Origin: a virus
Strand: one strand, 5' to 3'
Virus record (IMG/VR): IMGVR_UViG_3300035698_008150
Location: 1 to 63,475 of that record
DNA: 63,475 bases
This document shows, one piece after another, positions 4,348 to 23,343 of this stretch. Position 1 is the stretch's first letter; the number at the start of each line of letters is the position of its first letter. The translations under genes were made by a program, and so were the position numbers. Below the pieces are notes generated by a model. It had not been told where the DNA came from, made no database searches, and saw only the letters and a program-made list of their open reading frames with translations.

Positions 4348-6951
4348 ATGGCAATAATATACGACCAGAGTAGTAATGCTTATGATGACAGCAACCTAAG
4401 CTATGACGGAACGTTAGGAAGTTCTAGTTCATCTAGTTCTTCTAGTTCCTCAAGCAGTTCTAGTAGTTCATTAAGCTCAAGCAGTTCTAGTTCCTCAAGT
4501 AGCTCTTTAAGTTCTATCAGTTCAAGTTCATCAAGTTCCTCTAGCAGTTCATTCAGCTCAAGCAGTTCTAGTTCATCAAGTAGCTCAAGCAGTTCATTAA
4601 GTTCAAGTAGCTCTAGTTCTTCTAGTTCCTCAAGCAGTTCATATAGCTCAAGTAGTTCCAGTTCATCAAGTAGCTCATTCAGCTCAAGTAGCTCTAGTTC
4701 TTCAAGTAGCTCAAGTAGTTCTTTCAGCTCAAGTAGTTCAAGCTCATCAAGTAGCTCAAGTAGTTCATTAAGTTCTAGTAGCTCTAGTTCTTCTAGTTCC
4801 TCAAGTAGCTCATTTAGCTCAAGTAGCTCAAGCAGTTCATCAAGTTCTTCTTTTAGCTCTAGCTCATCAAGTTCATCAAGTAGCTCAAGTAGTTCTTTCA
4901 GCTCAAGTAGCTCAAGTAGTTCTTCAAGTAGTTCCTTTAGTTCAAGTTCTTCTAGTTCTTCTAGTAGCTCTAGCAGTTCATTCAGCTCAAGTAGTTCAAG
5001 CTCATCAAGTAGCTCAAGCAGTTCATTAAGTTCAAGTAGCTCTAGTAGCTCATCAAGCAGTTCATTCAGTTCAAGTAGCTCTAGCTCATCAAGCAGTTCT
5101 AGTAGCTCAAGCAGCTCAAGTAGTTCCTTTAGCTCAAGTAGCTCTAGCTCATCAAGTAGTTCTAGTTCATCAAGCTCATCAAGCAGTTCATTCAGTTCAA
5201 GTTCTTCAAGTAGCTCATTCAGCTCAAGCAGTTCTTCCAGTTCATCAAGTAGTTCTTTCAGTTCTTCTAGTTCATCAAGTAGCTCAAGTAGTTCTTTAAG
5301 TTCTAGCAGTTCAAGCTCATCAAGTTCCTCAAGTAGTTCCTTTAGCTCTAGTAGCTCAAGCTCATCAAGCTCATCAAGTAGTTCTTTCAGCTCAAGCAGT
5401 TCTAGTTCATCTAGCAGTTCTAGTAGCTCAAGTAGTTCATATAGCTCAAGCTCATCAAGTAGCTCAAGCAGTTCTAGCAGTTCTAGCTCATCAAGCAGTT
5501 CTTTTAGTTCCTCAAGTAGCTCAAGCAGTTCATCAAGCAGTTCATTCAGTTCAAGTAGCTCAAGCAGTTCATCTAGCAGTTCTTTTAGTTCAAGTTCTTC
5601 TAGTTCCTCAAGTAGCTCAAGCAGTTCATCAAGCAGTTCAAGTAGTTCTTTCAGCTCAAGCAGTTCTAGTTCATCTAGCAGTTCTAGTAGCTCAAGTAGT
5701 TCATCTAGCAGTTCTAGTAGCTCAAGTAGTTCTAGTTCATCAAGTAGCTCAAGTAGCTCATATAGTTCTAGTAGTTCAAGTAGCTCAAGTAGCTCATTTA
5801 GTTCAAGTAGCTCAAGTAGTTCTAGTTCATCAAGTAGCTCATTTAGTTCAAGCAGTTCAAGCAGTTCTAGTTCTTCTAGTAGCTCATTCAGTTCAAGCAG
5901 TTCTAGTTCTTCTAGTAGCTCAAGTAGTTCTTTAAGTTCTAGCAGTTCAAGCTCATCGAGTAGTTCATTTAGCTCAAGTTCTTCCAGTTCATCAAGTAGT
6001 TCTAGTAGTTCAAATAGTTCTTTTAGTTCCTCAAGTAGCTCAAGTAGTTCCTTTAGCTCAAGTAGTTCTAGCTCATCAAGCAGTTCAAGCTCGTCTAGTT
6101 CATCAAGCAGTTCTTTCAGCTCAAGTAGTTCCAGTTCATCAAGTTCCTCTAGCAGTTCTTTCAGCTCTAGTAGCTCAAGCTCATCAAGTTCCTCTAGCAG
6201 TTCTTTCAGCTCAAGTAGTTCCAGTTCATCAAGTAGCTCTAGCAGTTCTTTCAGTTCAAGTAGTTCCAGTTCATCAAGTAGCTCTAGCAGTTCATTCAGC
6301 TCAAGTAGTTCTAGTTCATCAAGTAGCTCAAGCAGTTCTTTCAGCTCTAGTTCATCAAGCTCATCAAGCTCATCAAGTAGTTCTTTCAGCTCAAGTTCTT
6401 CTTCTTCGAGTTCATCAAGTAGCTCAAGCTCATCAAGCTCGTCTAGTAGTTCCTTTAGTTCAAGTTCATCAAGTAGCTCTAGTAGCTCAAGCTCATCAAG
6501 CTCATCAAGTAGTTCCAGTTCATCTAGTAGTTCTTTCAGTTCAAGTAGCTCAAGTAGTTCCAGTTCATCTAGCAGTTCATTCAGTTCAAGTAGCTCAAGC
6601 TCATCAAGTAGCTCTAGCTCATCTAGCAGTTCAAGCAGTTCAAGTAGTTCTAGTTCATCAAGCAGTTCATTCAGTTCAAGTAGCTCTAGCTCATCAAGTA
6701 GCTCTAGCTCATCTAGCAGTTCAAGCAGTTCAAGCTCATCAAGTAGTTCAAGTTCTTTTAGTTCTTCAAGTAGTTCAAGCAGTTCAAGTTCATTATCAAG
6801 CTCAAGTTCTTCTAGTTCATCAAGCTCGGCTTCATCATTACCATATCAAGTTGATTTTGTTAATAAAACATATGATTATGAATTTAAAGATGATACAAGC
6901 AATTATAAATTTGATAATAAAACATATAATTATAAATTTGATGAACAATAA
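4348..6951 (+). CDS. Giant polyserine virion-locus protein
   Basis: 867 aa. Residues 1-24 (MAIIYDQSSNAYDDSNLSYD...) form a Tyr/Asp-rich head; residues 25-830 are serine interrupted by about fifty single residues (mostly Phe, some Leu, Tyr, rarely Ile, Asn, Ala). The Ser runs are most often 14 long, also 11, 12, 20 and one near 40. The C-terminus repeats a short Tyr/Phe/Asp motif (NKTYDYEF, SNYKF, NKTYNYKF). Ser is encoded by mixed AGT, AGC, TCA, TCT and TCC, two codon families that cannot interconvert by one base change, so the protein sequence is under selection and this is not a plain microsatellite. It lies between fibre genes and terminase. Likely a virion surface fibre or brush; glycosylation is inferred. 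Confidence 0.85.
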   Translation: MAIIYDQSSNAYDDSNLSYDGTLGSSSSSSSSSSSSSSSSSLSSSSSSSSSSSLSSISSSSSSSSSSSFSSSSSSSSSSSSSSLSSSSSSSSSSSSSSYSSSSSSSSSSSFSSSSSSSSSSSSSSFSSSSSSSSSSSSSSLSSSSSSSSSSSSSSFSSSSSSSSSSSSFSSSSSSSSSSSSSSFSSSSSSSSSSSSFSSSSSSSSSSSSSSFSSSSSSSSSSSSSSLSSSSSSSSSSSSFSSSSSSSSSSSSSSSSSSSSFSSSSSSSSSSSSSSSSSSSSFSSSSSSSSFSSSSSSSSSSSSFSSSSSSSSSSSSLSSSSSSSSSSSSSSFSSSSSSSSSSSSSSFSSSSSSSSSSSSSSSSSYSSSSSSSSSSSSSSSSSSSSFSSSSSSSSSSSSSFSSSSSSSSSSSSFSSSSSSSSSSSSSSSSSSSSSFSSSSSSSSSSSSSSSSSSSSSSSSSSSSSSSSSSSSYSSSSSSSSSSSFSSSSSSSSSSSSSSFSSSSSSSSSSSSSSFSSSSSSSSSSSSSSLSSSSSSSSSSSFSSSSSSSSSSSSSSNSSFSSSSSSSSSFSSSSSSSSSSSSSSSSSSSSFSSSSSSSSSSSSSSFSSSSSSSSSSSSSSFSSSSSSSSSSSSSSFSSSSSSSSSSSSSSFSSSSSSSSSSSSSSFSSSSSSSSSSSSSSFSSSSSSSSSSSSSSSSSSSSSSFSSSSSSSSSSSSSSSSSSSSSSSSSSFSSSSSSSSSSSSSSFSSSSSSSSSSSSSSSSSSSSSSSSSSSSSFSSSSSSSSSSSSSSSSSSSSSSSSSSSSFSSSSSSSSSSSLSSSSSSSSSSSASSLPYQVDFVNKTYDYEFKDDTSNYKFDNKTYNYKFDEQ
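4420..6837 (+). repeat. Imperfect 45-bp periodic polyserine repeat
   Basis: About 806 serine-dominated codons. The commonest unit is one hydrophobic codon (TTC, TTT, TTA or TAT) plus 14 Ser codons, giving a 45-bp period, with variants of 12, 13 and 21 codons. Units differ in synonymous codons, so they are old or kept scrambled. Confidence 0.85.
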
Positions 6952-6965
6952 CAAGGAGATATAGT

Positions 6966-7271
6966 ATGCCAAACAGAAAAAACTTATATTACGTTGCGGA
7001 TGATGTAACATTCCGCGGATCATTCGAGATTGTTGGTGAAGCGCAAACACCGGACACTAATAGCGCCAAAGTTCAAATATGGAAGGTTGGTTCTACTACT
7101 GCAGTGTTAGCTGAAACAACAGCTACGATTGCCGGCACACAAATAAGATATAAATACACTCCATTGATAGTAGGATCATTTGCGTTATTTTTTTACGCAA
7201 CATTTAATTCAGGGGCAGATAAACGTACAGGAACAATAGAATTTTTAGTAAAAAAGAAAGAGGCGCATTAA
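6966..7271 (+). CDS. Hypothetical beta-rich virion protein
   Basis: 101 aa, no signal peptide. Alternating beta-strand pattern (VTFRGSFEIVGEA, AKVQIWKVGSTTAVLAET, SFALFFYATF) suggests a single Ig-like or BppU-like sandwich as found in small phage structural proteins. AAGGAGAT site. Directly follows the polyserine gene and precedes the small terminase by one base, so it is probably virion-associated. Family not recognised. Confidence 0.6.
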   Translation: MPNRKNLYYVADDVTFRGSFEIVGEAQTPDTNSAKVQIWKVGSTTAVLAETTATIAGTQIRYKYTPLIVGSFALFFYATFNSGADKRTGTIEFLVKKKEAH

Positions 7272-7272
7272 T

Positions 7273-7872
7273 ATGGTAAATCCAAAATCATTAGAAAATT
7301 TAAGATTCAATAAGGATAAGAAAGAAGGATATGGATATAGGTATTCTTTACCTCAAGAAAAGATTGATGAGTTGTTTAGCCATTTAGCTGAAGGTATTTC
7401 ATTAAAACAAGCAGCTAAGAATACAAAGATATGTTTTGAAACTGCAAGGAAATACTTTAATAAAGGAGATAGCAAACGCGGAATAAAACCACTTCAATGG
7501 CGACTTACTATGTTTCAGGATAGAATATCAGAGAAATTTAATGTTTTGCTTGAGGAACGTAGGACAAAGATGCTGTACATTATTAGGGAAACATTAGATA
7601 ATATAGAAGATAGAATAAAAGATAAAGAATGTAAATGTTGTAAAGGAGAAGGAACACAATTAAATGGTAAAACTGGTCAGAAGGATTTATGCCAAGCATG
7701 TAACGGTGAAGGAAAAATCACTAGCAAACTAATGGATAAAACAACAATGAAAGATTTTGAACGATTAGCTAGGTTAGAAGTATTTCTTTCTGGTGGAGTA
7801 ACTCAAAAAACAGAAGAAAGAAAGATCTTAACTGCAGAGGAGATAATGCAAGATGCAAGTGATGATACATAA
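7273..7872 (+). CDS. Small terminase subunit with DnaJ-like zinc motif
   Basis: 199 aa. A helix-turn-helix lies at about 40-65 (EGISLKQAAKNTKICFETA), followed by a helical oligomerisation region and a four-Cys cluster CKCCKGEG (120-127) and CQACNGEG (140-147), the CxxCxGxG pattern of DnaJ zinc domains. It overlaps the large terminase start, as expected of the DNA-recognition subunit that loads packaging. The zinc module is unusual in small terminases. Identification rests on HTH plus position. Confidence 0.75.
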   Translation: MVNPKSLENLRFNKDKKEGYGYRYSLPQEKIDELFSHLAEGISLKQAAKNTKICFETARKYFNKGDSKRGIKPLQWRLTMFQDRISEKFNVLLEERRTKMLYIIRETLDNIEDRIKDKECKCCKGEGTQLNGKTGQKDLCQACNGEGKITSKLMDKTTMKDFERLARLEVFLSGGVTQKTEERKILTAEEIMQDASDDT

Positions 7873-9436
7873 TACAGAAAGAATTGATTGGAAAAAAGAA
7901 ATTGCTACACGATCTCCAAAGGATGCAAAAAAGTGGCAGTTTAGTGAGTATAGGCGTTGTGTAGAAGATAAGGTTTATTGGTTTAATAATTATGTATGGA
8001 CGATAGATACTCGTAAAACGCCATCGATTCTCCCATTTACTTTACGTGATTATCAAATTAAATTAATCAATCAGTTAGATAAGTATGAAGATGTATTTAT
8101 TGATAAATGCAGAGATATGGGTATTTCTTGGTCAGTTATGGGGTGGGAATTACATCAAGTTTGTTACACTAAAGGATTTACCGCATTAAATATTTCTAGA
8201 AAAGAATCAGAAGTGCAAGATAACGGTAATACTTTTCATTCTTTGCATGGTAGGTTGGCATTTATGTATCAACGGCTTCCTCCGTTCATTAAACCAAAGG
8301 TACATAATCCTTTTTTAGTTTTTTCAGTTCCTTTAATGAATTCTGTTATAAAGGGTGAATCAGCTAATCCTAAAGCCGGAAGGGATACGCAATATAAATT
8401 TATATTAGTTGATGAAGCAGCTTTTGTTGATTGCTTAGATGAAATGTATAAAGGATTAAGGAATGCTACAAATACGTTATGCTTAAATTCTACACCTCCG
8501 AAAGAAAGTGTGAATAATAAATTTGCGGAAGTAAAAGATATGAAAAACTCTGGATTTGTTAAACTTGGTTTTGACTGGAATTTAAACCCAGACCATACAC
8601 AAGGTTGGTATGATAAAAAAACTGCTTCTATGAGTGAACAGGAAATAGCACAAGAAATATTACGTCAGTACGATAAGGCTTTAACAAATCGTTCTTATCC
8701 AGAGTATGATAAGAAATTACATTTATTAAGTCATAAAGTATATCTTAATCCAAAATCAAAATTATATTGCTTTATGGATTTTGGTCTTGACGGTGAGCCA
8801 TTTGTATTTGCACAAAAAGATTTTGAAGATAGATTATTTATAATCTATTATAAAATATATAGAGATAAGTTAACTACCGAATTATATCAAGAATTTAAAA
8901 AGTGTTTAGATGCTATTAGATATTCAGGAGAGATTAAGGATATAATATTTATAGGTGATAAGTCAGGAAACAAAAGAAATAGAGTTACCAAGACAAGTGT
9001 AATCAGCGATTGGAAAACAGTATCTAATAATCAAATATTAATTAAATCTAGAGAACTTTCTAATTATGAAAAGATGAAGTGTGTAAGAACTTGCCTTAAA
9101 AGATATATTAATGGACGACCACAATTTAATATATCAAATGAACCGACTTGCTTAAACTTTGCACAATGTATCAATGGGGTTACGCTTAATAAATCTAGGG
9201 AAGATCATATAGATAATAAATTTACTCATGCTGTTAATGCTGTTGAGTATGGAATAAATTATTTATTTCCTGTAACAAAAGCATCAGGCGTAGTTGTTAG
9301 TTTAGACCCCGGGGATGATATTAGAGATAATGAAGGGAATTTTGTTAGAAGAATTGGAAGAAATATGTTTAAAGGAACTTCTGTTTCCAGCGTTATTGGT
9401 GATAGAAGAATAGCAAGAAGGAGCCATATATTATGA
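7853..9436 (+). CDS. terL: Large terminase subunit
   Basis: 527 aa, packaging motor. The ATPase has a degenerate Walker A (KCRDMGISWS, 85-94) and Walker B with catalytic Glu (FILVDEAAF, 183-191), then the coupling motif NSTPP. The C-terminal RNase H-fold nuclease shows acidic motifs CFMDFG (about 303), IFIGDKSG (about 366) and HAVNAVEYG (about 461). Start ATG lies about ten bases after GAGGAG inside the small subunit gene. It overlaps the portal gene by four bases (ATGA). Confidence 0.95.
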   Translation: MQVMIHNTERIDWKKEIATRSPKDAKKWQFSEYRRCVEDKVYWFNNYVWTIDTRKTPSILPFTLRDYQIKLINQLDKYEDVFIDKCRDMGISWSVMGWELHQVCYTKGFTALNISRKESEVQDNGNTFHSLHGRLAFMYQRLPPFIKPKVHNPFLVFSVPLMNSVIKGESANPKAGRDTQYKFILVDEAAFVDCLDEMYKGLRNATNTLCLNSTPPKESVNNKFAEVKDMKNSGFVKLGFDWNLNPDHTQGWYDKKTASMSEQEIAQEILRQYDKALTNRSYPEYDKKLHLLSHKVYLNPKSKLYCFMDFGLDGEPFVFAQKDFEDRLFIIYYKIYRDKLTTELYQEFKKCLDAIRYSGEIKDIIFIGDKSGNKRNRVTKTSVISDWKTVSNNQILIKSRELSNYEKMKCVRTCLKRYINGRPQFNISNEPTCLNFAQCINGVTLNKSREDHIDNKFTHAVNAVEYGINYLFPVTKASGVVVSLDPGDDIRDNEGNFVRRIGRNMFKGTSVSSVIGDRRIARRSHIL

Positions 9437-10851
9437 AAAGAAAGAAAGATCAACCAGAACAAGATTCAAGTAATGTTATATTGAATTTTAAAGAACGTAA
9501 AAAAAGGTCAATAGAGTTACAGAGAAGAATAGCTGAATCATACCCAATGGTAGGGGGTACTGGTGAAGATGCTCAATGGCGTTCTTTGACATCTAATTCA
9601 CTCAGGGATTTGAGCCTCCTTACACAGAATAGAATGCAGGATATTGCGTTCTATTTATATGATAGCAATCCTATGGCAGGCAGGATTATCGAGATTATAG
9701 AAGATTTTGTTATTGGTGACGGATTTACTTATTCAGTCAAAGATCCTAATGTAAAAGAAGTTATCGATAATTTTTGGAACGATCCGGATAATAACCTTGA
9801 TGAAGAAATGAATGTTAATGTTGTTGAACTATATTTGTTTGGTGAGTTATGTTTACCGACTTGGGTTAATTCAGCTAACGGTGCAGTTAAGCTAGGGTAT
9901 ATAGATCCAAAGACAATTTTAAAAATTAGAAAAGATAGAAATAATCCAAAGATACAAAAATCATTAATATGGAAAAGATTAAGTGGTTCTTCTAAAGAAC
10001 AAGAAATGAGTATAATAAATGTTGATAGAAATCTTAGGTCAAAAACATATGGGAAGTTAGTTGGAGATTGTTTTTACTTTACAATAAATAAAGTAAGTTC
10101 AGCAACGCGCGGTAGAAGTGTGTTATTAAGATTAGCTGATTGGCTAGATGGATATGATCAATTTCTTTTTACAAGGTTAGAAAGAGCATTCTTGTTGAAT
10201 TCGTTTATTTGGGATGTTGCTTGTGAAGGAATGAATGAATCAGAGCTTCAAGAATTTGTAAAAAAATTAGCGCCGCCTAGACCTGGCTCTATAAGAGCTC
10301 ATAATGAAAAAATCACCTGGAAGTCAGAAACACCTAAATTAGAATCAGCTGATGCATCAGGTGAAGCAGCCTTATTTAAGAACCAGATTTTAGGTGGTGC
10401 TGGATTCCCGGGGCATTGGTTTGCTGAAGGTGATAAAACTACACGTGCAACAGCTATGGAAATGTCGCTTCCTACTCTTAAAAATTTAAAGACTAAACAG
10501 AAAAAAATAAAGTTTCTAATTAAGCGGATGTTTGATTTTGTCATTGACCAAGCAATAATAGCTGGTGTATTAAAAGAGGGTGTTGATAAGACTTTTAAAG
10601 TTATTCCTTCTCCAATAGTTTCTAGAGATAGCAGCAAAGGAACTGCTGAAGCTATGTCAGGATTAATATCTGGATTGGTTCAAGCATCTGATAAAAAATG
10701 GGTTAGTGATAAGAAGGCTAAAACTATTATTAATGCAGTAATATCACAATTAGGTGTAGATGTAGATAGTGAGGCTGATGATAATGTAGATAGTGATGCT
10801 GATGATAATAAGAAAGAAGAAGAAAAAGGAGTAGCGACAAATGAAGAATAA
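9433..10851 (+). CDS. Portal protein
   Basis: 472 aa. Typical portal features are MQDIAFYLYDSNPMAGRIIE (about 66-85), a phrase seen in many portals, then the mixed alpha/beta wing and stem regions, and an acidic C-terminal tail (DVDSEADDNVDSDADDN). The dodecamer would form the DNA entry vertex and anchor the terminase. Its start overlaps terL and its end overlaps the methylase gene by 11 bases, so the three are translationally coupled. Confidence 0.9.
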   Translation: MKRKKDQPEQDSSNVILNFKERKKRSIELQRRIAESYPMVGGTGEDAQWRSLTSNSLRDLSLLTQNRMQDIAFYLYDSNPMAGRIIEIIEDFVIGDGFTYSVKDPNVKEVIDNFWNDPDNNLDEEMNVNVVELYLFGELCLPTWVNSANGAVKLGYIDPKTILKIRKDRNNPKIQKSLIWKRLSGSSKEQEMSIINVDRNLRSKTYGKLVGDCFYFTINKVSSATRGRSVLLRLADWLDGYDQFLFTRLERAFLLNSFIWDVACEGMNESELQEFVKKLAPPRPGSIRAHNEKITWKSETPKLESADASGEAALFKNQILGGAGFPGHWFAEGDKTTRATAMEMSLPTLKNLKTKQKKIKFLIKRMFDFVIDQAIIAGVLKEGVDKTFKVIPSPIVSRDSSKGTAEAMSGLISGLVQASDKKWVSDKKAKTIINAVISQLGVDVDSEADDNVDSDADDNKKEEEKGVATNEE

Positions 10852-12667: not shown

Positions 12668-12679
12668 ATCATTTTTTCC

Positions 12680-12708
12680 TTGACATTTATAAAAAATAAG
12701 ACTATATT
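12680..12708 (+). promoter_or_regulatory. Sigma70-type promoter for the capsid genes
   Basis: TTGACA (12680-12685), 17-bp spacer, TATATT (12703-12708). It lies in the only clear gap of the head module, about 40 bases before the next ATG, and would raise expression of protease, capsid and decoration genes. Confidence 0.85.
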
Positions 12709-12750
12709 TTAAGTGTATAGGTTTTTAACAGTTTATTCACAGGAGGTAAA

Positions 12751-13068
12751 ATGCCTTATCCAACTGAACACACCTGTCGGGTCGCAGAACCATTACCACA
12801 GAACTCTGGTATTTTTGCTCGTAAATCAATTGCTTCTGGTATAAGCATAGTAATGCAAAAATCTAAAGGAGATTCTAACTCTCCTATGAAGGTTCAATCT
12901 TATCGATTTGGAAAACACCAATTCACTCATACTGAAGCTAAAGAATGGTTAAAAAAACATAGTATAGAATATACTGCGTTTGAACCTGCTAGTAGCCCGG
13001 ATAAGAAAGAAACAAGAGCTGACATTATCAATAGGATAACTAAAGAGTTATCAGGTGTGATAATTTAA
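12751..13068 (+). CDS. Small head-module protein (MPYPTEH family)
   Basis: 105 aa, AGGAGG site. Begins MPYPTEHTCRVAEP, a phrase found at the N-terminus of small proteins or prohead proteases of many phages; a later segment (FGKHQFTHTEAKEWLKKH) fits the same group. The gene abuts the protease-capsid gene (its TAA overlaps the next ATG), so it probably acts in capsid assembly. No enzymatic motif seen. Confidence 0.65.
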   Translation: MPYPTEHTCRVAEPLPQNSGIFARKSIASGISIVMQKSKGDSNSPMKVQSYRFGKHQFTHTEAKEWLKKHSIEYTAFEPASSPDKKETRADIINRITKELSGVII

Positions 13069-15650
13069 TGAAATATAATCATTTACATATTGCTTCATTC
13101 TTAGAAAGTAGTTCTTCTGGCGATAAGTGGAAAGTAATGGTGATCGAAGAAGGACTGTCGAAAAACGGCAAATACTATACAAAGGAAGCCCTCCAAAAAT
13201 CTATTCCTTTATTTGAAAAATCAAAAGTTTGTTTTTATGAGTGGAAAGACAAGCATTTTGACCACATACCTTTATCCGTTGAAAAGATGTGTCCGGAAGG
13301 ATTTCCTCTACAAACAGCCGGCTACCTTGATAATGTGAAGTTTGAAACAGTTAAGGTTGAAGGTAGAGAAGTCGCTGGTTTAACTGCATCTTTACACTTA
13401 TTAGAAAAAAACTCAAGAGTTAAAGATTTGAAGCAAATGCTTACAAATGCTTGGAAAAAAGGATTAAAAAACCTACTTGGACTTTCCATAAATGCTGAGG
13501 GGCCGTCAAGCGTGCGTATGATGAATGGGCAACCGATAACAGTTGTCAATGGAATAAGTAAGGTTTTCAGTACCGATTTCGTGACTCAGCCTGCGGCGGG
13601 CGGCGGGTTACTAAAAATAATTGAAAGTTTCAATACAAAAGGAGGTATGGAACAGATGTTTAAGAAGATTATCGAATCGTTGAAAAGGTTTAATTCGAAG
13701 ATATTAGAAAGCGTAGATATCGCTAATATCACAGAAGAAGAAGTAGTAAGTATTTTTGAATCATTAGCTAAAGAAGCTAAAGAGAAAAATTCAGACAAGG
13801 CTGATAACCTTGAAGAGATTGTCGGTAAAATGAAAGACAAGAAATATGAGGAAGCAGAAGCTTTACTTAATGCTATAACAAATGAACAAAAAATGTCAGA
13901 TAATGATTTGCTTAATGCTGATGATAAAACATTAAGCCCCGGAGATTTAAAGAAAAAGAAAGCTTTGCTAAAAGTGGAACAAGATGCTGCTGCAAAAGAA
14001 GCAAAGAAACAAGAAGATTTAGAGAATAAAAATAAAGATTTAGAATCTAAATTAGATGCTATAAATAGCAAACTAGCTATTAGAGAATGCAAAGAGCTAT
14101 TAGAAGTTGCTTTATCTGAAAGCAACTTGCCAGAAGTAATCAAACATAAAATTCGTAATTCCTTTAAAAACAAGGTGTTTAAAGAATCAGAGATAAAAGA
14201 ATCTGTTAAAGCAGAGCGTGATACATTGGCAAAATTAGTTGAAAGCAAAGCAGTTATTGATTTTGGTGGTGATTTTGACGGCTCTTTTGTGAAAAGAGAT
14301 CCTATCACCCGCGTTCAAGCATCTATGGATTTAATGTTAGGTTACAAACCTAGTGACGTAGATAAAGATAAGTACAAAGATATTGATGGTTTTAGATCAT
14401 TAAAAGAAGCTTATGTTGCTTTTACTGATGATGCAGAAGTATCCGGAAGATTAGGACCTCGTGCATTGTCTAGATTAAGCGAATCAGTTGTTGATGATAA
14501 CACTACATTTTCCTACGCTTTAGGTTATTCTATGCAAAGAAGAATGCTTCCTGAATATAGAGCAATACCTGAACTATGGAAAAAGATAGCAGTGTCAACA
14601 CCTATCAAAGATTTTAAATTACAGGAAAGAATTCAATGGGGTGGTTTTGGAGTGCTTCCTACAGTGCAAGCAGCTAGAACAGTTGCCGGAACACCAATAG
14701 ATAGTGCAACTCCTACATACCCTGAATTAGGGTTCCCTGGCGATACCGAGGCAACATACGCTGTGATGACTAAAGGTGGAGTAATCACAGTAACAAGAAG
14801 ATCAATCATTGATGATGATTTGAAAGTATTGACAGGAATTCCTAAAAGAGTTGGGAAAGCAGCTGGATATACTTTGAATCAATTTGCGTTTGATTTAATG
14901 TTAGGGTATGGAGCTTCTGGAATCAATACTGCTACTATTTATGATAGTGCAGTTCTTTACATTGCATCTCATAAGAATTATCGCACAGGTGCATTAGGTT
15001 ACGATAATCTTCAGGACTTGCTTAATGATATGTGGTATCAGTGTGAGTTAGGATATAAAACTGACGTGGCAACACAATTAGAAGCAGCTGCTACAACATT
15101 AGATGTTACTGCTGGAACTGGTCAGTATTTCAAAGCCGGAGATTATGCCTGGCTAGACGGAGAAATTGTTCGTGTAGATTCAGTATCTACTGATGCATTG
15201 ACTATTGCAAGAGGAATGTTTGGAACAACTGATGCTCAGCATTTAGTTGCAGTTGATGTAAGAAAAGTTACTCAGTTCTTAGCATTAGAGAAACCTATCC
15301 TATGGGTACCTCGTGCTTTGAATGGTACTGCATTGGCATTACAGAAATCAGAAAAACATCCAGAGAATGCTGAAGGTGGAATTAATACACTGAGAAATCA
15401 GTTTGAAGTAGAACAAAGCCCATTCTTACGTGGTGATGAAAATAATTACTATATTTCATCTAAGATTTCTGACGTAGAAGGAATAGAAATAGGGTTTTTA
15501 AATGGTAAAGAAGAACCAGAAATTTTGGTTCAAGATCAACCTACTGTCGGAAACGTATTTACCTATGATACGATCCGCTACAAAGTTCGTCATGAATACG
15601 GCGGAGCAGTTGTTGATTTCAGAGCGTTTGCAGGGGCGATTGTAACTTAA
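13068..15650 (+). CDS. Prohead protease-scaffold-major capsid fusion
   Basis: 860 aa. Residues 1-185 form a phage prohead serine protease: SKNGKYYTKEAL (31-42), candidate catalytic His at 63 or 66 (KHFDHIP), LLGLSINAEG with candidate Ser140, and VTQPAAGGG at its end. About 197-420 is a Lys/Glu-rich scaffold-like region with coiled coil near 285-345. About 425-860 is the HK97-type major capsid protein (a coat-protein-like P-loop and E-loop layout; the C-terminus FTYDTIRYKVRHEYGGAVVD is capsid-like). In most phages these are two or three genes. An internal ribosome site at 13640 may supply scaffold-capsid alone. Self-cleavage would release the coat protein. Confidence 0.85.
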   Translation: MKYNHLHIASFLESSSSGDKWKVMVIEEGLSKNGKYYTKEALQKSIPLFEKSKVCFYEWKDKHFDHIPLSVEKMCPEGFPLQTAGYLDNVKFETVKVEGREVAGLTASLHLLEKNSRVKDLKQMLTNAWKKGLKNLLGLSINAEGPSSVRMMNGQPITVVNGISKVFSTDFVTQPAAGGGLLKIIESFNTKGGMEQMFKKIIESLKRFNSKILESVDIANITEEEVVSIFESLAKEAKEKNSDKADNLEEIVGKMKDKKYEEAEALLNAITNEQKMSDNDLLNADDKTLSPGDLKKKKALLKVEQDAAAKEAKKQEDLENKNKDLESKLDAINSKLAIRECKELLEVALSESNLPEVIKHKIRNSFKNKVFKESEIKESVKAERDTLAKLVESKAVIDFGGDFDGSFVKRDPITRVQASMDLMLGYKPSDVDKDKYKDIDGFRSLKEAYVAFTDDAEVSGRLGPRALSRLSESVVDDNTTFSYALGYSMQRRMLPEYRAIPELWKKIAVSTPIKDFKLQERIQWGGFGVLPTVQAARTVAGTPIDSATPTYPELGFPGDTEATYAVMTKGGVITVTRRSIIDDDLKVLTGIPKRVGKAAGYTLNQFAFDLMLGYGASGINTATIYDSAVLYIASHKNYRTGALGYDNLQDLLNDMWYQCELGYKTDVATQLEAAATTLDVTAGTGQYFKAGDYAWLDGEIVRVDSVSTDALTIARGMFGTTDAQHLVAVDVRKVTQFLALEKPILWVPRALNGTALALQKSEKHPENAEGGINTLRNQFEVEQSPFLRGDENNYYISSKISDVEGIEIGFLNGKEEPEILVQDQPTVGNVFTYDTIRYKVRHEYGGAVVDFRAFAGAIVT
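13640..13658 (+). promoter_or_regulatory. Internal ribosome site in the protease-capsid gene
   Basis: AGGAGG (13640-13645) precedes two in-frame ATG codons, one base and ten bases later (13647, 13656). The second has good spacing and starts at residue 197, just after the protease domain, giving a 664-aa scaffold-capsid product. Lambda-type nested scaffold genes are the known parallel. Confidence 0.65.
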
Positions 15651-15739: not shown

Positions 15740-16081
15740 ATGAAATTCACAAGATATAAATATGGAGTAGCAAATGAAAGAGGTACTGTTCTCTCTAAAA
15801 CAGCAGATTATACAATATTAGAAAATGATATTTTAAGATCCGGTCAGTTTTTTAAAGTTGATGGTCATAAGTTAACATTGCCTGCCGCTAGTGGAAATTT
15901 AAAAGGTACAAGTGTATATGTTTTTGGAAGTAGCGGTTCATCTAAAGTAGCTGTTGTTGCTGGTTTTGGTGGTGGTGGTGCTAGTTATGATACTGTAACC
16001 GTAGGAGCATATAATACTATAGAGTTTTGGTGTGACGGCAGTTATTGGTACGCATTATCTAATGCGGTTGGTGCTAGCTAA
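15740..16081 (+). CDS. Capsid decoration-type protein without Ser tail
   Basis: 113 aa. Beta-rich with LTLPAAS (about 50), AGFGGGGASYDTVTVG and FWCDGSYWYAL near the C-terminus. Its position right after the capsid gene and a strong AAGGAGG site suggest an abundant head-decoration protein. The next gene encodes a paralog sharing the whole fold plus a polyserine tail; this copy ends cleanly after YALSNAVGAS. Confidence 0.7.
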   Translation: MKFTRYKYGVANERGTVLSKTADYTILENDILRSGQFFKVDGHKLTLPAASGNLKGTSVYVFGSSGSSKVAVVAGFGGGGASYDTVTVGAYNTIEFWCDGSYWYALSNAVGAS

Positions 16082-16098: not shown

Positions 16099-16653
16099 AT
16101 GCCAAAACCTACCAGATATAAATATAGTGTCGCTAACCGTAGGGGTACAACCCTAAGTAAATCCGCAGATTACTCTCTGACAGAGAATGATGTTGAAAGA
16201 AGTGGATCTTTATTTGTTAAATTAACTTCAGGAAATACACTAACTTTACCTGCCGCTAGTGATAGTTTAAAAGGCGCTAGTGTTTATGTTAATACATCTG
16301 ATCAAGGCATTGTATATGTTGCTGCCGGATTTGGTGGTGGGGGAGCTAGTTATGATACTGCTAATATAGGAAAGTATGAATCTGCTGAGTTTTGGTGTGA
16401 CGGCAGTTATTGGTACGCATTAAATGTAACTGTAGCTGGAAATACTTCTAGTTCATCATCCAGTTCATCATCTTTTTCCAGTAGCTCATCAAGTTCATCA
16501 AGTAGCTCAAGTAGCTCATTAAGTTCATCAAGTAGTTCATTAAGCTCGAGTAGCTCAAGCTCAAGTAGCTCAAGTAGCTCAAGCTCAAGCTCAAGCTCAT
16601 CAAACTCAAGTAGTTCTAGCTCATCTAGTTCGAGCTCAAGCGAATCTAGTTAA
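16099..16653 (+). CDS. Capsid decoration-type protein with polyserine tail
   Basis: 184 aa. Residues 1-115 are paralogous to the preceding protein (shared TRYKY, LTLPAAS, FGGGGASYDT, FWCDGSYWYAL). Residues 117-184 are almost pure Ser with Phe, Leu, Asn and a final ESS. It would display about 68 Ser outward at each decoration site. AAAGGAGG site. Having tailed and untailed copies side by side suggests mixed decoration or recent tail gain. Confidence 0.75.
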   Translation: MPKPTRYKYSVANRRGTTLSKSADYSLTENDVERSGSLFVKLTSGNTLTLPAASDSLKGASVYVNTSDQGIVYVAAGFGGGGASYDTANIGKYESAEFWCDGSYWYALNVTVAGNTSSSSSSSSSFSSSSSSSSSSSSSSLSSSSSSLSSSSSSSSSSSSSSSSSSSSNSSSSSSSSSSSSESS

Positions 16654-16710: not shown

Positions 16711-17004
16711 ATGGCATATCCCGCTTATAAATGCCCTTTTAAAAATAATGCCGGTGCAGGAATTGTTTGTGAGAATATTGCATGTGGATTGTTCAACGTT
16801 GTTGAAAATGACTGCAATTTTATTATGAATGAACGAAGAAAACATCAGCTAACTGGTAAAGTAGTTCCTAATACAAATACTTATTCTAGTTCGAGTTCTA
16901 GTTCTAGTTCGAGTTCATATAGCTCGAGTTCTTCTTCGTCGAGTTCTTCTTCGTCGAGTTCTTCTTCGTCGAGTTCTTCTTCGTCGAGTTCGAGTTCTTC
17001 TTAA
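16711..17004 (+). CDS. Small Cys-rich protein with polyserine tail
   Basis: 97 aa. Residues 1-57 hold four Cys (8, 20, 25, 35) that could bind metal or form disulfides; not a recognised family. Residues 59-97 are Ser with one Tyr. Part of the tail is four perfect copies of a 15-bp unit. Between decoration protein and head-tail connector, with AAAGGAG site, so probably a minor head protein displayed on the virion. Confidence 0.65.
   Translation: MAYPAYKCPFKNNAGAGIVCENIACGLFNVVENDCNFIMNERRKHQLTGKVVPNTNTYSSSSSSSSSSSYSSSSSSSSSSSSSSSSSSSSSSSSSSS
16926..16985 (+). repeat. 15-bp minisatellite (four perfect copies) in a Ser tail
   Basis: GAGTTCTTCTTCGTC is repeated exactly four times (16926, 16941, 16956, 16971). 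Perfect identity means recent expansion, unlike the scrambled codons of the 4.3-7 kb gene, and shows how Ser tails can change length without frame loss. Confidence 0.9.
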
Positions 17005-17736: not shown

Positions 17737-17764
17737 TTCCCCAAGCAAAGAGATTTAGGAGAAG

Positions 17765-17810
17765 GCGGAGATAGATGAACATATGGTGATTTTTACATCT
17801 ATCCTTCCGC
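17765..17810 (+). terminator. Imperfect hairpin between connector and tail genes
   Basis: GCGGA plus GATAGATG (17765-17777) pair with CATCTATC and TCCGC (17796-17810), with a 2-base bulge, and are followed by TTTATTATG. It could act as a weak terminator separating head from tail transcripts. It also lies where the next gene's ribosome site should be, so it may limit translation. Confidence 0.5.
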
Positions 17811-17820
17811 TTTATTATGC

Positions 17821-18267
17821 ATGTCATTAGCATTAATTAGAACACAAATAAAAACTAAGCTTGAAGCAATATCAGGTGTAGAAAATGTTTATGATTATAA
17901 ACGTTTCTGTAGCGACCTTACTACATATAATACCTTGTTTGTTAAGGATTCTAAAGTAAACACTTGGGAAATAGAAAGGACTTCTTTTGAAAGGATTGGG
18001 CATGGGGGGTCAGGTGATGTTGAAGATGTAAATAATACTTTTATAATTAGTGGTTTCTATTCTTTTTATGATGAATTAGCCACAGAAAAAACATTTCAAG
18101 ACCTTATTGAAACTATTTGTGCTAGTTTTATCAGTGATCCAACATTAGGCGGAACAGCAAATATCGTGCATATTCCTATTACCGGAGAGTTTTCAATGGT
18201 AATGTTAGGTGCAGTTTTATGTCATAAATGCGATATAACAATTAATATTGATGATAGAATTATTTAA
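17821..18267 (+). CDS. Tail completion/terminator-like protein, putative
   Basis: 148 aa. Pattern of N-terminal helix (LIRTQIKTKLEAISGVENVYDY), beta strands and a helix (TFQDLIETICASFI) fits the tail-terminator fold of lambda gpU type, and the gene precedes the tail tube gene as expected. No clear Shine-Dalgarno sequence is present; a hairpin ends ten bases before the ATG, suggesting low or structured translation. Confidence 0.5.
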   Translation: MSLALIRTQIKTKLEAISGVENVYDYKRFCSDLTTYNTLFVKDSKVNTWEIERTSFERIGHGGSGDVEDVNNTFIISGFYSFYDELATEKTFQDLIETICASFISDPTLGGTANIVHIPITGEFSMVMLGAVLCHKCDITINIDDRII

Positions 18268-18281
18268 AGGAGGGAAAGAAA

Positions 18282-19301
18282 ATGGCTAAAATATCAAGAG
18301 TTGCTCAATTAGCAGGAAAAGTAGAAACTATTAGTGGAACAGCAGAAACATTAGCAGCAGCACAAGCTACAATACTGTCATATGAGCCAGTGTTAGATGC
18401 TGATTTTGAACAGTATAAAAGAAATCCTGTTGTGAAGCATATGTCTAGGTTTGCTTCTGAGCCTGGTGCAAGGAAAATGTCGCTTGCTTTTAAAGCTGAG
18501 TTAATGGGGCCAATATCCGGATCAAAAGGAACAACACTACCACTAACGCCGTTTCTTCGTTCTTGTGGATTGTCAGAAAGCCTTTCAGTTGGAACATCTA
18601 ATATTTATGTTCCTGTATCAAGTAGTTTTGTTACCTGTACAGTAGCTAAATACTTAGATGGAATAAGAAAAACAATGTCAGGTTGTGCCGGTAATGTTAA
18701 ATTTCAGTTTAAAGTTGGTGAACCTGTTTTTTGTGAATTTGCAATGGAAGGTAAATATTACGAACATAGCGATACTGCACTGTTAACTCCTACATACCCG
18801 GAACAAGTTCCTTTAATTTTTATGGGTGCAACTGTTACTATTGACAGTGATAGTTTAGTAATGGATACTTTAGAAATTGATATGCAGAATGAAGTTGTTA
18901 TATCTCCTAGACCTCAAGATTCATCTGGTATTGATTATGCTAAAATAGTTGGTAGAAATCCACAAATGTCATTTGACCCTGAATTAGTTTCTATTGCTAG
19001 CCATGATTTTTATTCAAAGATACTTTCTCGTTCTACAATGGCTGTAGTGATTAATATGAATGATAGCAATGGAAATAATATTACTTTTTCATTGCCGGCA
19101 GTAAGGTACACAGGATTAAAAGAAGCTGATAGAAGTGGTATTGCGGCGTTAAGTGCTACTTGCGAAATTTGTAAGAATTCAGACGCGGGTAATGATGAGA
19201 TAACAATTACTATGGGAACATCATCTAGTTCATCTAGCTCAAGTAGTTCAAATAGTTCAAGCAGTTCTAGTTCGTCAAGTTCTAGTAGTGAGAGTGCTTA
19301 A
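18282..19301 (+). CDS. Major tail tube protein with polyserine C-terminus
   Basis: 339 aa, AAAGGAGG site. Beta-rich repeats of a tube protein (MSLAFKAELMGP, FQFKVGEPVFCEFAMEGKY, DTLEIDMQNEV), then residues from about 313 are Ser with one Asn and a final ESA. The position between terminator-like and chaperone genes supports a tail tube subunit; a Ser tail would then be repeated along the whole tail. Alternative: another tail structural protein. Confidence 0.65.
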   Translation: MAKISRVAQLAGKVETISGTAETLAAAQATILSYEPVLDADFEQYKRNPVVKHMSRFASEPGARKMSLAFKAELMGPISGSKGTTLPLTPFLRSCGLSESLSVGTSNIYVPVSSSFVTCTVAKYLDGIRKTMSGCAGNVKFQFKVGEPVFCEFAMEGKYYEHSDTALLTPTYPEQVPLIFMGATVTIDSDSLVMDTLEIDMQNEVVISPRPQDSSGIDYAKIVGRNPQMSFDPELVSIASHDFYSKILSRSTMAVVINMNDSNGNNITFSLPAVRYTGLKEADRSGIAALSATCEICKNSDAGNDEITITMGTSSSSSSSSSSNSSSSSSSSSSSSESA

Positions 19302-19311
19302 AAGGATATGA

Positions 19312-19788
19312 ATGCCTAGTAGTTTTAAATGCAGAATAGATATTGATGTTTCTAATCCTGATTATAGTGATGCATCTATTCCATTAGGTCAAGTTGCTAG
19401 AAAAATTGCTGAAAGTTCAAGAAGGAATATACGCACACAAACTAGCATTAAAGGACACGCATTTAAAGGTTTATCAGTAAAAACAATTAAAGATAAAAGA
19501 AGAGAAGGAAGTGACTATCCTACAAGAGCATTGTATAGAAAAGGAATTATGTATCGTGCAATTCATGTTTATCAAAGAAGTAAAAATGCATTTGAAGTTG
19601 GTATAATTCCTAGAGGTAAACCAAAAAGAGATTTAGTAGGGTATATTCATCAGGAAATATACCCTATAATAAGAGCGTTTTTAGGATTTGATGCAAAATC
19701 TAGGCAATGGTCTAAAGAAAGATTTAGACGATGGATGAAAGAGAGAAAAGAAAAAGCTAAAAGAACTAAATCAACCTATAGTTATTAA
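19312..19788 (+). CDS. Basic phage morphogenesis-type protein
   Basis: 158 aa, strongly basic. SSRRNIRTQTSIKGHAFKGLSVKTIKDKR (cut in two: SSRRNIRTQ and FKGLSVKTIKDKR) and YRKGIMYRAIHVYQ resemble the Mu gpG-like virion morphogenesis family, which takes part in tail completion. The last 20 residues are a Lys/Arg tail (ERKEKAKRTKSTYSY). It lies between tail tube and tail chaperone genes. Confidence moderate. Confidence 0.5.
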   Translation: MPSSFKCRIDIDVSNPDYSDASIPLGQVARKIAESSRRNIRTQTSIKGHAFKGLSVKTIKDKRREGSDYPTRALYRKGIMYRAIHVYQRSKNAFEVGIIPRGKPKRDLVGYIHQEIYPIIRAFLGFDAKSRQWSKERFRRWMKERKEKAKRTKSTYSY

Positions 19789-20210: not shown

Positions 20211-20250
20211 TATTGGCAGTTGAGGTGTCAAGCTTAGGCCTTAATTGCCA
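20201..20250 (+). promoter_or_regulatory. Programmed minus-1 frameshift site with stem-loop
   Basis: Heptamer A AAA AAC (20201-20207) is phased as GAA AAA AAC in the upstream frame. After a 6-base spacer containing the TAA, TGGCAGTTGAGG (20214-20225) pairs with CCTTAATTGCCA (20239-20250), 12 bp including two G-U pairs, loop 13 bases. A minus-1 slip reads straight into the next frame. Confidence 0.9.
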
Positions 20251-20518: not shown

Positions 20519-20519
20519 T

Positions 20520-22463
20520 ATGGCAGTAGGCGATCAAAATTTTACAGTTAGAGCAACATTTGTTGATAAAGCTTCTGGTAAAGTCATAAAAGCTAATGCA
20601 GCAATGATTAATTCCATGAAGAAGGTAGGAGTCCAATTTCAAAAAACTGGGGCTGAAACTGCTATGGCTTTAGATAAAATGGCGCAAGGACATGAAAAAG
20701 CAGGAAGGTTTTCAAGATTCCACAACGCTCAAATAGGTAAGCTAATAGGATCTATTGGTTCTATGCGTAACATAATACTTGTTTGGATGTTTGCTTTAGG
20801 ACCATTAATCAATCTTTTTAAATCAGCTACCAAAGCTATGATGATACAAGAAGATGCTGTAAAGCGTCTTAGCTTTGCTATGGAAATCCAAGGTACTGCT
20901 TCTAAATTTATGCAAAATAATCTTAAAGAATTGTCTGCTGCTTTTCAAGAAACAACTAGATACGGTGATGAAGCAATATTGGAAGTAATGGAAAAATTAA
21001 TTACTGTAGGCGGAGTTGTACCTTCTAAATTAAAAAGAGCAACCCAAGCTGTTGTAGATTTTGCAGCAGGGTCCGGAAGAAGCCTATCAGAAGCGGGTGA
21101 GCTAATAGCAAAAAGTGCTGTTGGATATACAATGCAAATATCTAGGTTGTTCGGAGTTACTATACCTAAAAGCATGTCTGTAGCCAAACAATTTGAAATG
21201 GTTCTTGGATTGATAGAAGGAAAGATGGCTGGAAGAGCTCAAAGAGATATAAAAAGTTATGCAGGTAGCGTAGCGCAGATGGCTAACGCTTGGAGTGATG
21301 CAAAAGAAGCTTTAGGTTTTTTTCTTAATAAAACATTTCATTTGCAGGCTGGTATGAAAATAATGAAAGATATGTTTGATACGTGGTCTGGTAAAAATGC
21401 TTCTACTGCAATGATGGTATTAGATAAAGAAATAAGCAAAGTTGATAAATCGTTACAAATTTTAATTAAAACTAGCAAGAATATAAGTGGGAAAAATTTC
21501 TTATTCATGAAACCTGATAATCTTACAAATAAGATTGCAGAGAAACAACAAGAAAGACTTGCTTTGATAACAAGAAAAACACAGTTAGAAATTCAATCAT
21601 TTATGGATTCAATTAGACTTAAAGAACAAGGTAAAATAATAGAAGCAGAACAAGCTAAAATGGCAACACAAAAAGAATGGGCAGATACATATTCAATATT
21701 TCAAAGAACTCGAGCTGATTATCAAATAGAACAATTAAATCAAGAGTATGCTTTATACCTAAAAGTATTTGAAGATAATGCAGCTAGAAAATTAGAGATA
21801 GAGGAATGGTATCAAGCTAAAGTAACAAAATTACGAAAGCTTGCGTTAACAGATGCCAAAGATCAATACGATGCTATGGAAGTAATGACGAAATCATTTG
21901 CTGTTAATATGCGTAATTCTATGTCTGATGGTTTTTTTAAGGTTATCAAAGGAGATTTTGAATCATTAAAAGATGTATTAGTGTCATTTGGTGATGCAAT
22001 GTTAAAAACTATTACAGATATTATTGCTAATTTAATAATAATGTCAATATGGCAAAAAGCAGCTGGGCTATTAGGATATTCAGGAGGGGTTGTTGGTGCC
22101 GTTATTAATGCAGGAACTGCACGCGCTCATTCTGGTGGGTATATTATGGATTCAAAAAATAGTTTTGGGTATCGAAAGAAGTTTCATTCTGGAGGAGAAG
22201 TTCCCGCAACATTACTTGAGGGTGAGGGTGTATTAAACCGAAGAGCAATGGGCAATTTAGGTGTAGATAATTTGAATAAGCTTAATCGCGGAGAAGGTTC
22301 CGGCGGCGGCGGCGGAGTAGTAAATAATTATTATATTCAAACTATTGATGAACGATCATTCAGAGAAAGGTTACAGCAGAACGGAGATATTTATGCAAAT
22401 GCTTCCGGAAGAAGCATAATGGATAATCAATCATTAAGAGGAATTACACAAAAATATGGCTAA
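20520..22463 (+). CDS. Tape measure protein
   Basis: 647 aa. Typical opening with a short beta segment then heptad-rich helices, a hydrophobic stretch (MRNIILVWMFALGPLINLF, about 80-100) and Ala-rich regions (AVVDFAAGSGRSLSEAGELI). The C-terminal lambda H-like part has SDGFFKVIKGDFESLKDVL and a Gly-rich end with HSGGEVPATLLEGEGVLNRR. At about 0.15 nm per residue this predicts a tail near 95-100 nm. It overlaps the next gene by eight bases. Confidence 0.9.
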   Translation: MAVGDQNFTVRATFVDKASGKVIKANAAMINSMKKVGVQFQKTGAETAMALDKMAQGHEKAGRFSRFHNAQIGKLIGSIGSMRNIILVWMFALGPLINLFKSATKAMMIQEDAVKRLSFAMEIQGTASKFMQNNLKELSAAFQETTRYGDEAILEVMEKLITVGGVVPSKLKRATQAVVDFAAGSGRSLSEAGELIAKSAVGYTMQISRLFGVTIPKSMSVAKQFEMVLGLIEGKMAGRAQRDIKSYAGSVAQMANAWSDAKEALGFFLNKTFHLQAGMKIMKDMFDTWSGKNASTAMMVLDKEISKVDKSLQILIKTSKNISGKNFLFMKPDNLTNKIAEKQQERLALITRKTQLEIQSFMDSIRLKEQGKIIEAEQAKMATQKEWADTYSIFQRTRADYQIEQLNQEYALYLKVFEDNAARKLEIEEWYQAKVTKLRKLALTDAKDQYDAMEVMTKSFAVNMRNSMSDGFFKVIKGDFESLKDVLVSFGDAMLKTITDIIANLIIMSIWQKAAGLLGYSGGVVGAVINAGTARAHSGGYIMDSKNSFGYRKKFHSGGEVPATLLEGEGVLNRRAMGNLGVDNLNKLNRGEGSGGGGGVVNNYYIQTIDERSFRERLQQNGDIYANASGRSIMDNQSLRGITQKYG

Positions 22464-23343
22464 TACTAATATACTAACATTAACACCTGAATTTGGTTTA
22501 AAAGAAACTATAAGTTTTAATACCAATATAAGTGATTCTGAAAGTGGCATAGAACAACGCGATGCTTTATGGGATCATGGATTAAGAGATTATAACCTTA
22601 CTTGTAAATTCCTAACCCAAACAGCAATGAATGTAATTTGGGATTTTTATATTGCAAGGTTAGGCGCTTATGATTATTTTTTATTAAAAATTCTTACCGA
22701 GTATCAAATAACAGATGAAGCATTAGGGTCAGCTGATGGAGTAACAGCCGCTTTTTTACTTCATAATTTTCCTGTTGATGTTTCTGCAAATAGTTCTTGT
22801 ACTGTTGGTGGCGTTGCTAATACAAACTACACTTTAAGCAATAATTTTACCACTGAAAAATCATATATAACATTCAATCCTATTCCGGCAAGTGGCGCGA
22901 TATTACTTTCTTATGAATATTATTTTAAAGTTAGGTTTACTGATGATAAATTAACTAGAGAATTAGCCGCGTATCAGTTATTGCATTCCGGTATTAATTT
23001 AAAAGAGATTAGGTGGAGTTCTTATAATCCTCCTGAAGGAAACTTTAGTTCTTCTAGTTCTTCTAGTTCAATGAGTTCCAGCTCATCGTCTAGTTCAAGT
23101 AGATCTTCTTCAAGCTCATCTAGCTCAAGTTCTAGCTCATCTAGCTCAAGTTCTAGCTCATCTAGCTCATCGAGTTCATCTTCTCTTTCATCAAGTTCTT
23201 CGAGCTCATCAAGTTCAAGTAATTCTAGTTCATCATCAAGCAGTAGTGATTCTTCTAGTTCATCATCAAGTAGTAGCTCATTTAGTTCAAGCAGTTCTTT
23301 CAGCTCAAGTAGCTTTAGTTCATCAAGTAGCTCTAGCGGTTAA
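22456..23343 (+). CDS. DUF2460-like distal tail protein with polyserine tail
   Basis: 295 aa. Residues 1-197 match the GTA gp12/DUF2460 pattern: N-terminal strands, DYNLTCKFLTQTAMNVIWDF (about 45-64), then a domain with VSANSSCTVGG and IPASGAILLSYEYYFKVRF. Residues 198-294 are Ser with rare Met, Arg, Leu, Asn, Asp and Phe, so about one third of the protein is a Ser brush. The following three genes also follow the GTA order (DUF2163, NlpC/P60, tip protein). Confidence 0.8.
   Translation: MANTNILTLTPEFGLKETISFNTNISDSESGIEQRDALWDHGLRDYNLTCKFLTQTAMNVIWDFYIARLGAYDYFLLKILTEYQITDEALGSADGVTAAFLLHNFPVDVSANSSCTVGGVANTNYTLSNNFTTEKSYITFNPIPASGAILLSYEYYFKVRFTDDKLTRELAAYQLLHSGINLKEIRWSSYNPPEGNFSSSSSSSSMSSSSSSSSSRSSSSSSSSSSSSSSSSSSSSSSSSSSSLSSSSSSSSSSSNSSSSSSSSDSSSSSSSSSSFSSSSSFSSSSFSSSSSSSG

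Follow-up and report, generated by a model that had tools for sequence, protein, structure and literature searches.

Why should one phage attach long runs of serine to several of its putative virion proteins? The question is raised by the virus record IMGVR_UViG_3300035698_008150, a phage genome of 63,475 bases that was analysed over its full length and is called the window here. A six-frame scan of the whole window confines its polyserine (polySer) tracts to five open reading frames (ORFs) on the plus strand, as a first-pass annotation, made from the sequence alone, had claimed. The tails may well be scaffolds for phage-encoded O-glycosylation that would give the particle a mucin-like coat, a reading to which we attach a probability of roughly 0.55. 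The five carriers, with lengths in amino acids (aa), are the following.

4348..6951, plus strand: 867-aa protein with an internal polySer tract (4420-6831; 804 residues, of which 753 are Ser and 37 are Phe)
16099..16653, plus strand: decoration/spike-like protein; core 16099-16434, polySer tail 16447-16650 (68 aa)
16711..17004, plus strand: small Cys-rich protein; polySer tail 16885-17001 (39 aa)
18282..19301, plus strand: tail tube candidate; polySer tail 19221-19298 (26 aa); phrog_290 'minor tail protein', E 2.8e-14
22456..23343, plus strand: DUF2460 protein; polySer tail 23047-23340 (98 aa); PF09343, E 4.1e-21

Four of the tracts end their protein, while the 4348 protein has 24 residues before its tract and 40 after it. 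The lengths first given for the 68-, 39- and 26-residue tails are unchanged, and those for the 4348 tract (about 806) and the 22456 tail (97) were slightly off; the exact lengths of the long tracts depend on metagenome assemblies, and short-read assembly may misjudge repeats. The interruptions of the 4348 tract are mostly Phe, and 21 of its 49 gaps are exactly 15 residues. The tracts are not a product of chance, since about 1.5e-7 runs of ten Ser are expected per 20,000 residues and the longest Ser run in the remaining ORFs (25 checked, 7.7% Ser) is 4. The five genes together use all six Ser codons in overlapping periods such as 9, 15, 27, 45 and 90 bp, and they are therefore not one simple DNA repeat. 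Nor are they the error of one assembly, because the genes recur in near-identical records and the tracts on orthologues in diverged phages.

The tails are conserved throughout the clade. The four tailed cores were compared by tblastn with 29 records, namely 10 whole or partial genomes (the window included) and 19 loci, near-identical ones included. A Ser tract follows every core whose C-terminus is readable, in 21 of 21 rows for 16099, 22 of 22 for 16711, 27 of 27 for 18282 and 18 of 18 for 22456; one more 22456 row, L129, runs off its contig and is not in this count. Core identities range from 52 to 100%, and the shortest orthologous tail has 10 Ser. The co-occurrence of the tails in one genome, proposed earlier as a check, thus holds across the clade. 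The tblastn search found no 16711 match in G003 and L126, both of which have an additional tailed 16099-like copy just upstream. A long internal tract with a 4348-like C-terminus is found in G001, G002, G003, G005 and G006, with a looser version in G004, and G003, G004 and G005 have extra tracts within a long relative of the 24600 tail protein of the window. The claim that all tails except that of 4348 are C-terminal is correct for the window and fails in several relatives, where another domain comes after the tract. G001 and G002 are cases in point: the tract of their 16099 orthologue connects the core with an F5/8-type galactose-binding domain, which scores above the Pfam cut-off at 30.5 bits in one and barely so in the other (27.9 against 27.8). 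The layout of a polyserine linker, a tract between two folded domains, is seen in these two orthologues and in none of the four window tails. Other placements were also observed. In L112 (1188-1259) and L113 (154-225), the gene after the 16711 orthologue, of the 17014 type, opens with about 15 Ser, and L014 has tandem DUF2460-like ORFs (1380-1565 and 2607-2990), each of them Ser-tailed.

The composition of the tracts is far from what mutation would be expected to leave. The 22456 tails of G002 and of G007, a near-identical record of 63,847 bases that represents the window strain, can be aligned with one 4-residue gap. Among their 102 Ser-Ser positions the codons differ at 56, of which 16 are TCN/AGY switches (first base). 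The proportions of synonymous (pS) and nonsynonymous (pN) differences are 0.66 and 0.14 in the tail, and 0.53 and 0.10 in the core. This codon test covers one tail of the four, the three other tail pairs not being alignable well enough. Across 20 records of the clade, the near-identical L115 and L116 not both being counted, 75 tracts hold 7,049 residues, 92.2% of them Ser. Relative to a one-step mutational expectation, the numbers seen and expected are 6 and 66 for Thr, 0 and 50 for Pro, 7 and 51 for Cys, 4 and 44 for Gly, and 4 and 25 for Ala. Thr, Cys, Gly and Ala are thus about 6- to 11-fold under expectation and Arg and Asn about twofold under, while Phe, Leu and Ile are over it; no p-value is attached to this spectrum, because duplication of repeat units makes the counts non-independent. 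Ten GT9-linked loci outside the clade (22 tracts, 2,370 residues) give 2 seen against 19 expected for Thr, 0 against 16 for Pro, 0 against 13 for Cys and 1 against 11 for Gly, with Asn lowered too. That Ser is retained while Thr and ordinary linker residues are lost suggests a factor that recognises Ser.

Tract length changes readily. The window and G007 are 372 bp apart, and the scan gives tracts of 813 and 919 residues in 4348 and of 103 and 121 residues in 22456; the gain in these two tracts accounts for the whole gap, (106+18) x 3 = 372 bp. Outside them, one base in 60,727 differs, and there is no indel.

What might recognise Ser is suggested by a glycan cassette, overlooked by the first-pass annotation, that lies upstream of the long polySer gene on the circular map. 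The map is circular because the two window ends overlap in G007 by a 127-bp repeat. The cassette spans 55135-63457 and continues across the circle to 626-1468; through the end overlap in G007 it runs on into the genes at 626-4348. Its features are listed below.

55135..55716, plus strand: S-adenosylmethionine (SAM) methyltransferase, PF13489
55709..57484, plus strand: GT9-fold glycosyltransferase (predicted) fused to a methyltransferase; the GT9 part is the N-terminal ~310 aa, with four invariant Cys
57481..58518, plus strand: nucleotide-sugar epimerase/dehydratase of the short-chain dehydrogenase/reductase (SDR) type, PF01370 and PF16363
58490..59170, plus strand: methyltransferase, often conserved with GT9, PF13578
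59176..59619, plus strand: nucleotidyltransferase, PF01467; nearest to heptose-1-phosphate adenylyltransferase (TIGR02199, E 7e-20, under the model cut-off)
60141..60782, plus strand: LicD-type phosphotransferase, PF04991
60779..61654, plus strand: cassette protein, putative glycosyltransferase; relatives in G001, L172 and L174, no family
61738..62406, plus strand: methyltransferase, PF13578
62420..63457, plus strand: cassette protein, putative GT-A glycosyltransferase; invariant DAD motif, no family
63349..63475, no strand: 127-bp direct repeat, identical to window 1-127
626..1468, plus strand: cassette protein, putatively GT9-like by eye; no convincing family

The association of GT9 with polySer extends well beyond the window. 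A GT9 scan with five query sequences gave 30 viral loci, of which 12 are window or G001 strains, leaving 18. A Ser tract of at least 30 aa lies within 10 kb of the GT9 relative in 14 of these 18 and in none of 80 controls (Fisher p 9e-14), the controls being the best 80 of 577 loci that share the tail-fibre domain of window gene 2564; one of them has a tract of 16 aa. Without L181, which was found via its Ser tract, the count is 13 of 17 (p 5e-13). These figures come from loci that are not independent; the GT9 loci are also the longer ones (median 18.1 against 11.8 kb), although the controls amount to three times more sequence. A window-type head protein or terminase is present in two of the 18 GT9 records and was not found in the other 16, many of which are fragments. 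The head module of G104 and G106 is of another kind, phrog_334 and phrog_156, and in G103 a tape measure gene accompanies head genes without a family match; the linkage spans at least two further phage types. Relatives of GT9, 58490, 62420 and 626 are all present in 7 of the 18 loci. Relatives of 62420 occur in 17 loci, and polySer is present in all six that do not belong to the window strain (two are of the G001 type), while those of 626 occur on 12 distinct contigs that also carry Ser-rich tracts. G001 has a similar cassette immediately upstream of its polySer gene. Purity is lower in the tracts of L318, which are mixed, and of L320, which are Ser/Cys (8248-9144 and 17593-19767, near its GT9 relative).

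The N-terminal domain of 55709 has a predicted GT9 fold, with a mean confidence (pLDDT) of 89.4 for the model. Its best Foldseek match is TibC (4rap, E 3.6e-11), with lipopolysaccharide (LPS) heptosyltransferase II close behind (E 4.6e-11). The GT9 profile (A4) matches TibC with an E value of 0.001, weaker than its best match, but this alignment extends through the Cys region to position 284, while the LPS heptosyltransferase matches stop by position 233. All 18 GT9 relatives keep the four Cys unchanged. TibC binds iron through four Cys (339, 342, 358 and 370) that are needed for activity, and it modifies Ser and not Thr (PMC4358343). With TibC and the autotransporter heptosyltransferases 55709 would share a GT9 fold, four Cys towards the end of the catalytic domain and Ser as the proposed acceptor (PMC4358343). 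It differs in lacking the N-terminal beta-barrel, in being phage-encoded and methyltransferase-fused, and in its proposed acceptor, which is polySer tails here and an autotransporter for TibC. The linked GT9 enzyme with its TibC-like Cys region is a candidate for the factor that recognises Ser.

A number of observations weigh against glycosylation of the tails. In structural comparison, 55709 is closest to 3tov, an uncharacterised GT9 protein (VIA Z 23.5), followed by 1psw (21.8) and TibC (20.9; root-mean-square deviation (rmsd) 2.9 over 260 residues), and since these scores do not tell the enzymes apart the GT9 fold alone does not pick a TibC-like over an LPS-type enzyme. The best match of the GT9 profile in the PDB is LPS heptosyltransferase II, 1psw (E 3.7e-7, positions 97-222). 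Three of the four Cys, and not the fourth, are in register with those of TibC, and their spacing is different. The N-terminal barrel of TibC (residues 1-97) has no counterpart, the predicted protein beginning at the residue aligned to TibC 91-93, and 55709 is for this reason not assigned to the TibC family. The profile searches match none of 62420, 60779 and 626 to a glycosyltransferase family, and the records of G002-G006 show no main cassette in view. Outside the clade, GT9-linked tracts have no Phe excess (9 seen, 10.5 expected), which makes that excess a clade trait, and Arg is not depleted in them but above expectation. As for the linkage, L181, L312 and L313 (the latter two being contigs of L175 and L174) were query rows, chosen with their tracts known; without these three, the count is 11 of 15 (p 2e-11). 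Two of the 18 GT9 loci (L321 and L322, which are alike) have a tract of 16 aa and two have none, although L314, one of the tract-negative loci, is on a contig that bears a tract at a greater distance (L172). None of three SDR relatives from strains other than the window's has a Ser tract in the stretch examined. The converse relation is loose: a codon-pattern survey gave at least 79 polySer loci, and among the 50 contigs used for the reverse test, GT9 was found in 6 of the matches listed (one, L208, is of the window clade and another, L190, is a weak partial match), all of them among those with long or several tracts, while 1 of 38 controls has a weak partial match. GT9 predicts polySer and polySer does not predict GT9, so phage polySer needs no GT9. 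Both display on the virion and glycosylation are, moreover, inferred from the genes.

Some of these observations would suit tails that stay unmodified, as a brush or stalk of flexible hydrophilic spacers that separate particles or hold binding domains off the surface, with the cassette doing some other job. The tract that connects the 16099 core of G001 and G002 to a galactose-binding domain is what such spacers would look like, bacterial carbohydrases have polyserine linkers between domains (PMC2386152), and 44 of the 50 polySer contigs among the matches listed have no GT9 in the record. Ordinary spacers do not readily explain why the usual linker residues Gly, Thr, Pro and Ala are strongly depleted, Asn reduced and, in the clade, Phe, Leu and Ile raised, or why GT9 is again linked to tracts in phages where no head genes of the window type were found, and we consider this account unlikely, though one to be taken seriously. 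GT9 enzymes are classically LPS heptosyltransferases, which agrees with 1psw as the best profile match (Z 21.8) and with the presence of a LicD-type gene; the cassette could then act on the host surface (LPS or capsule) or on phage DNA and lie near polySer through a shared tail-fibre or host-interaction region. Against this, GT9 relatives lie near Ser tracts across lineages and in none of the 80 tail-fibre-domain loci (best 80 of 577) does a long tract occur; the Cys region, too, aligns with the protein-modifying TibC, and a host-surface or DNA target appears quite improbable.

Ser is also a kinase target, and the tails might be phosphorylated, or modified by host enzymes, and not by the phage cassette, for which the same 44 contigs of 50 (among the matches listed) lacking GT9 in the record would speak; no protein kinase was recognised among the scanned ORFs, which did not include every small ORF, and we regard this as very unlikely. 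Neutral expansion by slippage at permissive C-termini draws on the repetitive DNA and on near-identical strains whose tract lengths differ (813 and 919 residues in 4348, 103 and 121 in 22456) while the remaining 60,727 bases show a single change. It is hardly credible, however, when Ser is retained despite many synonymous changes in the one testable tail (22456), when the residue spectrum lies far off mutational expectation, and when the same carriers are tailed in every readable orthologue while the paralogue 15740 is untailed in the window. Neutral slippage is thus disfavoured by the codon test on 22456 together with the residue spectrum. An ice-binding role for the tails, which a cold Antarctic lake as the possible source of the near-identical records would suggest, was considered and set aside.

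If the tails are glycosylated, as we favour, the tail tube, the tail tip, the decoration protein and perhaps the long fibre-like 4348 protein would present them on the particle as acceptors. The GT9-fold enzyme 55709 would add the first sugar, possibly heptose, to Ser, and 62420, 60779, 626, LicD and the methyltransferases would lengthen and cap the glycan. The resulting mucin-like coat would vary in thickness with tract length and might benefit the phage by shielding, altered adsorption or particle stability. A broader version, held more tentatively and at somewhat less than even odds, is a transferable viral mucin system, in which a Ser-specific, GT9-led cassette would move between unrelated phage types together with polySer scaffolds on head, tail tube and tail tip, and coat thickness would be tuned by rapid change of tract length.

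The carriers are for the most part plausible virion proteins. The identities first proposed from context and motifs are supported for 18282 (phrog_290), for 22456 (DUF2460) and, by a spike- or baseplate-like fold in a moderate model, for 16099; 4348 and 16711 have no convincing family match. The earlier description of 16099 needs one correction, in that it is one of two tandem paralogues, the 15740 copy being untailed in the window. Two neighbouring genes are relevant here.

13068..15650, plus strand: head maturation protease/major head protein, phrog_133 and phrog_4523; no Ser tail
15740..16081, plus strand: untailed paralogue of 16099, directly 3' of the major head gene

The AlphaFold model of the 16099 core is moderate (mean pLDDT 75.8). 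Its best Foldseek match is a Pseudomonas phage capsid spike (E 1.2e-4), and it also resembles tailspike and T4-type baseplate domains (best VIA Z 10.5, 91 residues, rmsd 3.8). The model supports a virion surface domain without proving it, because a fragment of a non-phage E. coli protein matches it likewise (Z 9.7); against PDB sequences the core gave one chance match (E 0.63). The 18282 protein is probably the tail tube protein, judging from its family match and gene order. DUF2460, the domain of 22456, we take to be a distal-tail family type. The distal tail protein of a gene transfer agent, Rcc01695, attaches to the tail tube, in a description that does not give the DUF name (PMC7296036). 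Profile searches found no family match for the 4348 protein and no convincing family for 16711. The C-terminus of the 4348 protein (6856-6942) consists of 9-aa repeats of the KTYDYKFKD type, which recur in relatives and could be an anchor.

Several known systems resemble parts of this one. With Ig-like decoration domains, phages place a single type of accessory module on several of their virion proteins, much as polySer would be used here, but polySer is a homopolymer and not a folded domain. In mycobacteriophage virions, the capsid and tail tube subunits bear glycans at their C-termini (Freeman et al. 2023, Cell Host Microbe, as described in PMC12619734), and for a related phage the glycosyltransferases are suggested to be phage-encoded (PMC11256854). 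In the window, tails end the tail-tube candidate and the decoration-like protein, and the major head protein is untailed. The window resembles those phages in having a phage-encoded glycosyltransferase, one GT9-fold enzyme by predicted structure with others putative. It may be unlike them in its proposed acceptors, near-pure Ser tracts that reach hundreds of residues and occur on four or more carriers, and in its GT9-fold candidate. The Ser tracts that join domains in the carbohydrases of Saccharophagus degradans are a second parallel (PMC2386152); here most tracts end putative virion proteins, and a glycan cassette is linked to them. C-terminal virion glycosylation and polySer linkers are therefore already known, and there is a chance that the arrangement seen here is a new system; a literature search, outside which most subscription papers lay, did not turn up polySer across a phage clade on several structural proteins, nor its link to a GT9 cassette.

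If correct, phages would build their own mucin-like coat from homopolymer scaffolds on several virion proteins and load it with their own enzymes. The acceptor of such a protein O-glycosylation system would be nearly as simple as one can be, which would help both the study and the application of Ser glycosylation. What the coat does in nature is then a testable question, be it shielding, altered adsorption or stability, and the GT9-polySer linkage would serve as a marker by which such phages could be picked out among the genomes of uncultured viruses.

Matches to isolates are weak, and no host can be assigned from them. The major head protein matches that of Microcystis phage Mae-JY22 with 32% identity over 66%, and the DUF2460 protein 22456 matches six records of Rhodobacter, Sphingobium and Roseobacter phages at 25-29%. 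The Mae-JY22 protein at 30259-31209, taken from gene order as the counterpart of the tail tube protein, carries no Ser tail. Neither 62420 nor the GT9 domain has a match in INPHARED, and 62420 has no sequence match in the PDB.

In the codon-pattern survey, at least 15 contigs (L176, L177, L178, L182, L193, L205, L211, L215, L222, L227, L229, L230, L232, L236 and L243) each encode a protein of roughly 1,130-1,220 aa that bears one short Ser tail, of 24-47 aa, at its end or close to it. These may represent another phenomenon. L248, a 273-kb viral contig with GT9 present, has two very long ORFs at 1005-14577 with many Ser tracts in each. The genome contig scan also gave three bacterial GT9 relatives, accompanied within the loci examined by no tract, a 20-aa tract and three Ser-rich stretches, respectively; the last arrangement is that of L326 (978-1400), a 3-kb contig of a bacterial metagenome-assembled genome. 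On the minus strand of the window lie, in this order, genes for a primase-like protein (AEP-TOTE, 36802-39447), an SNF2-type helicase (41911-43518) and a ParB-like protein (44498-46090).

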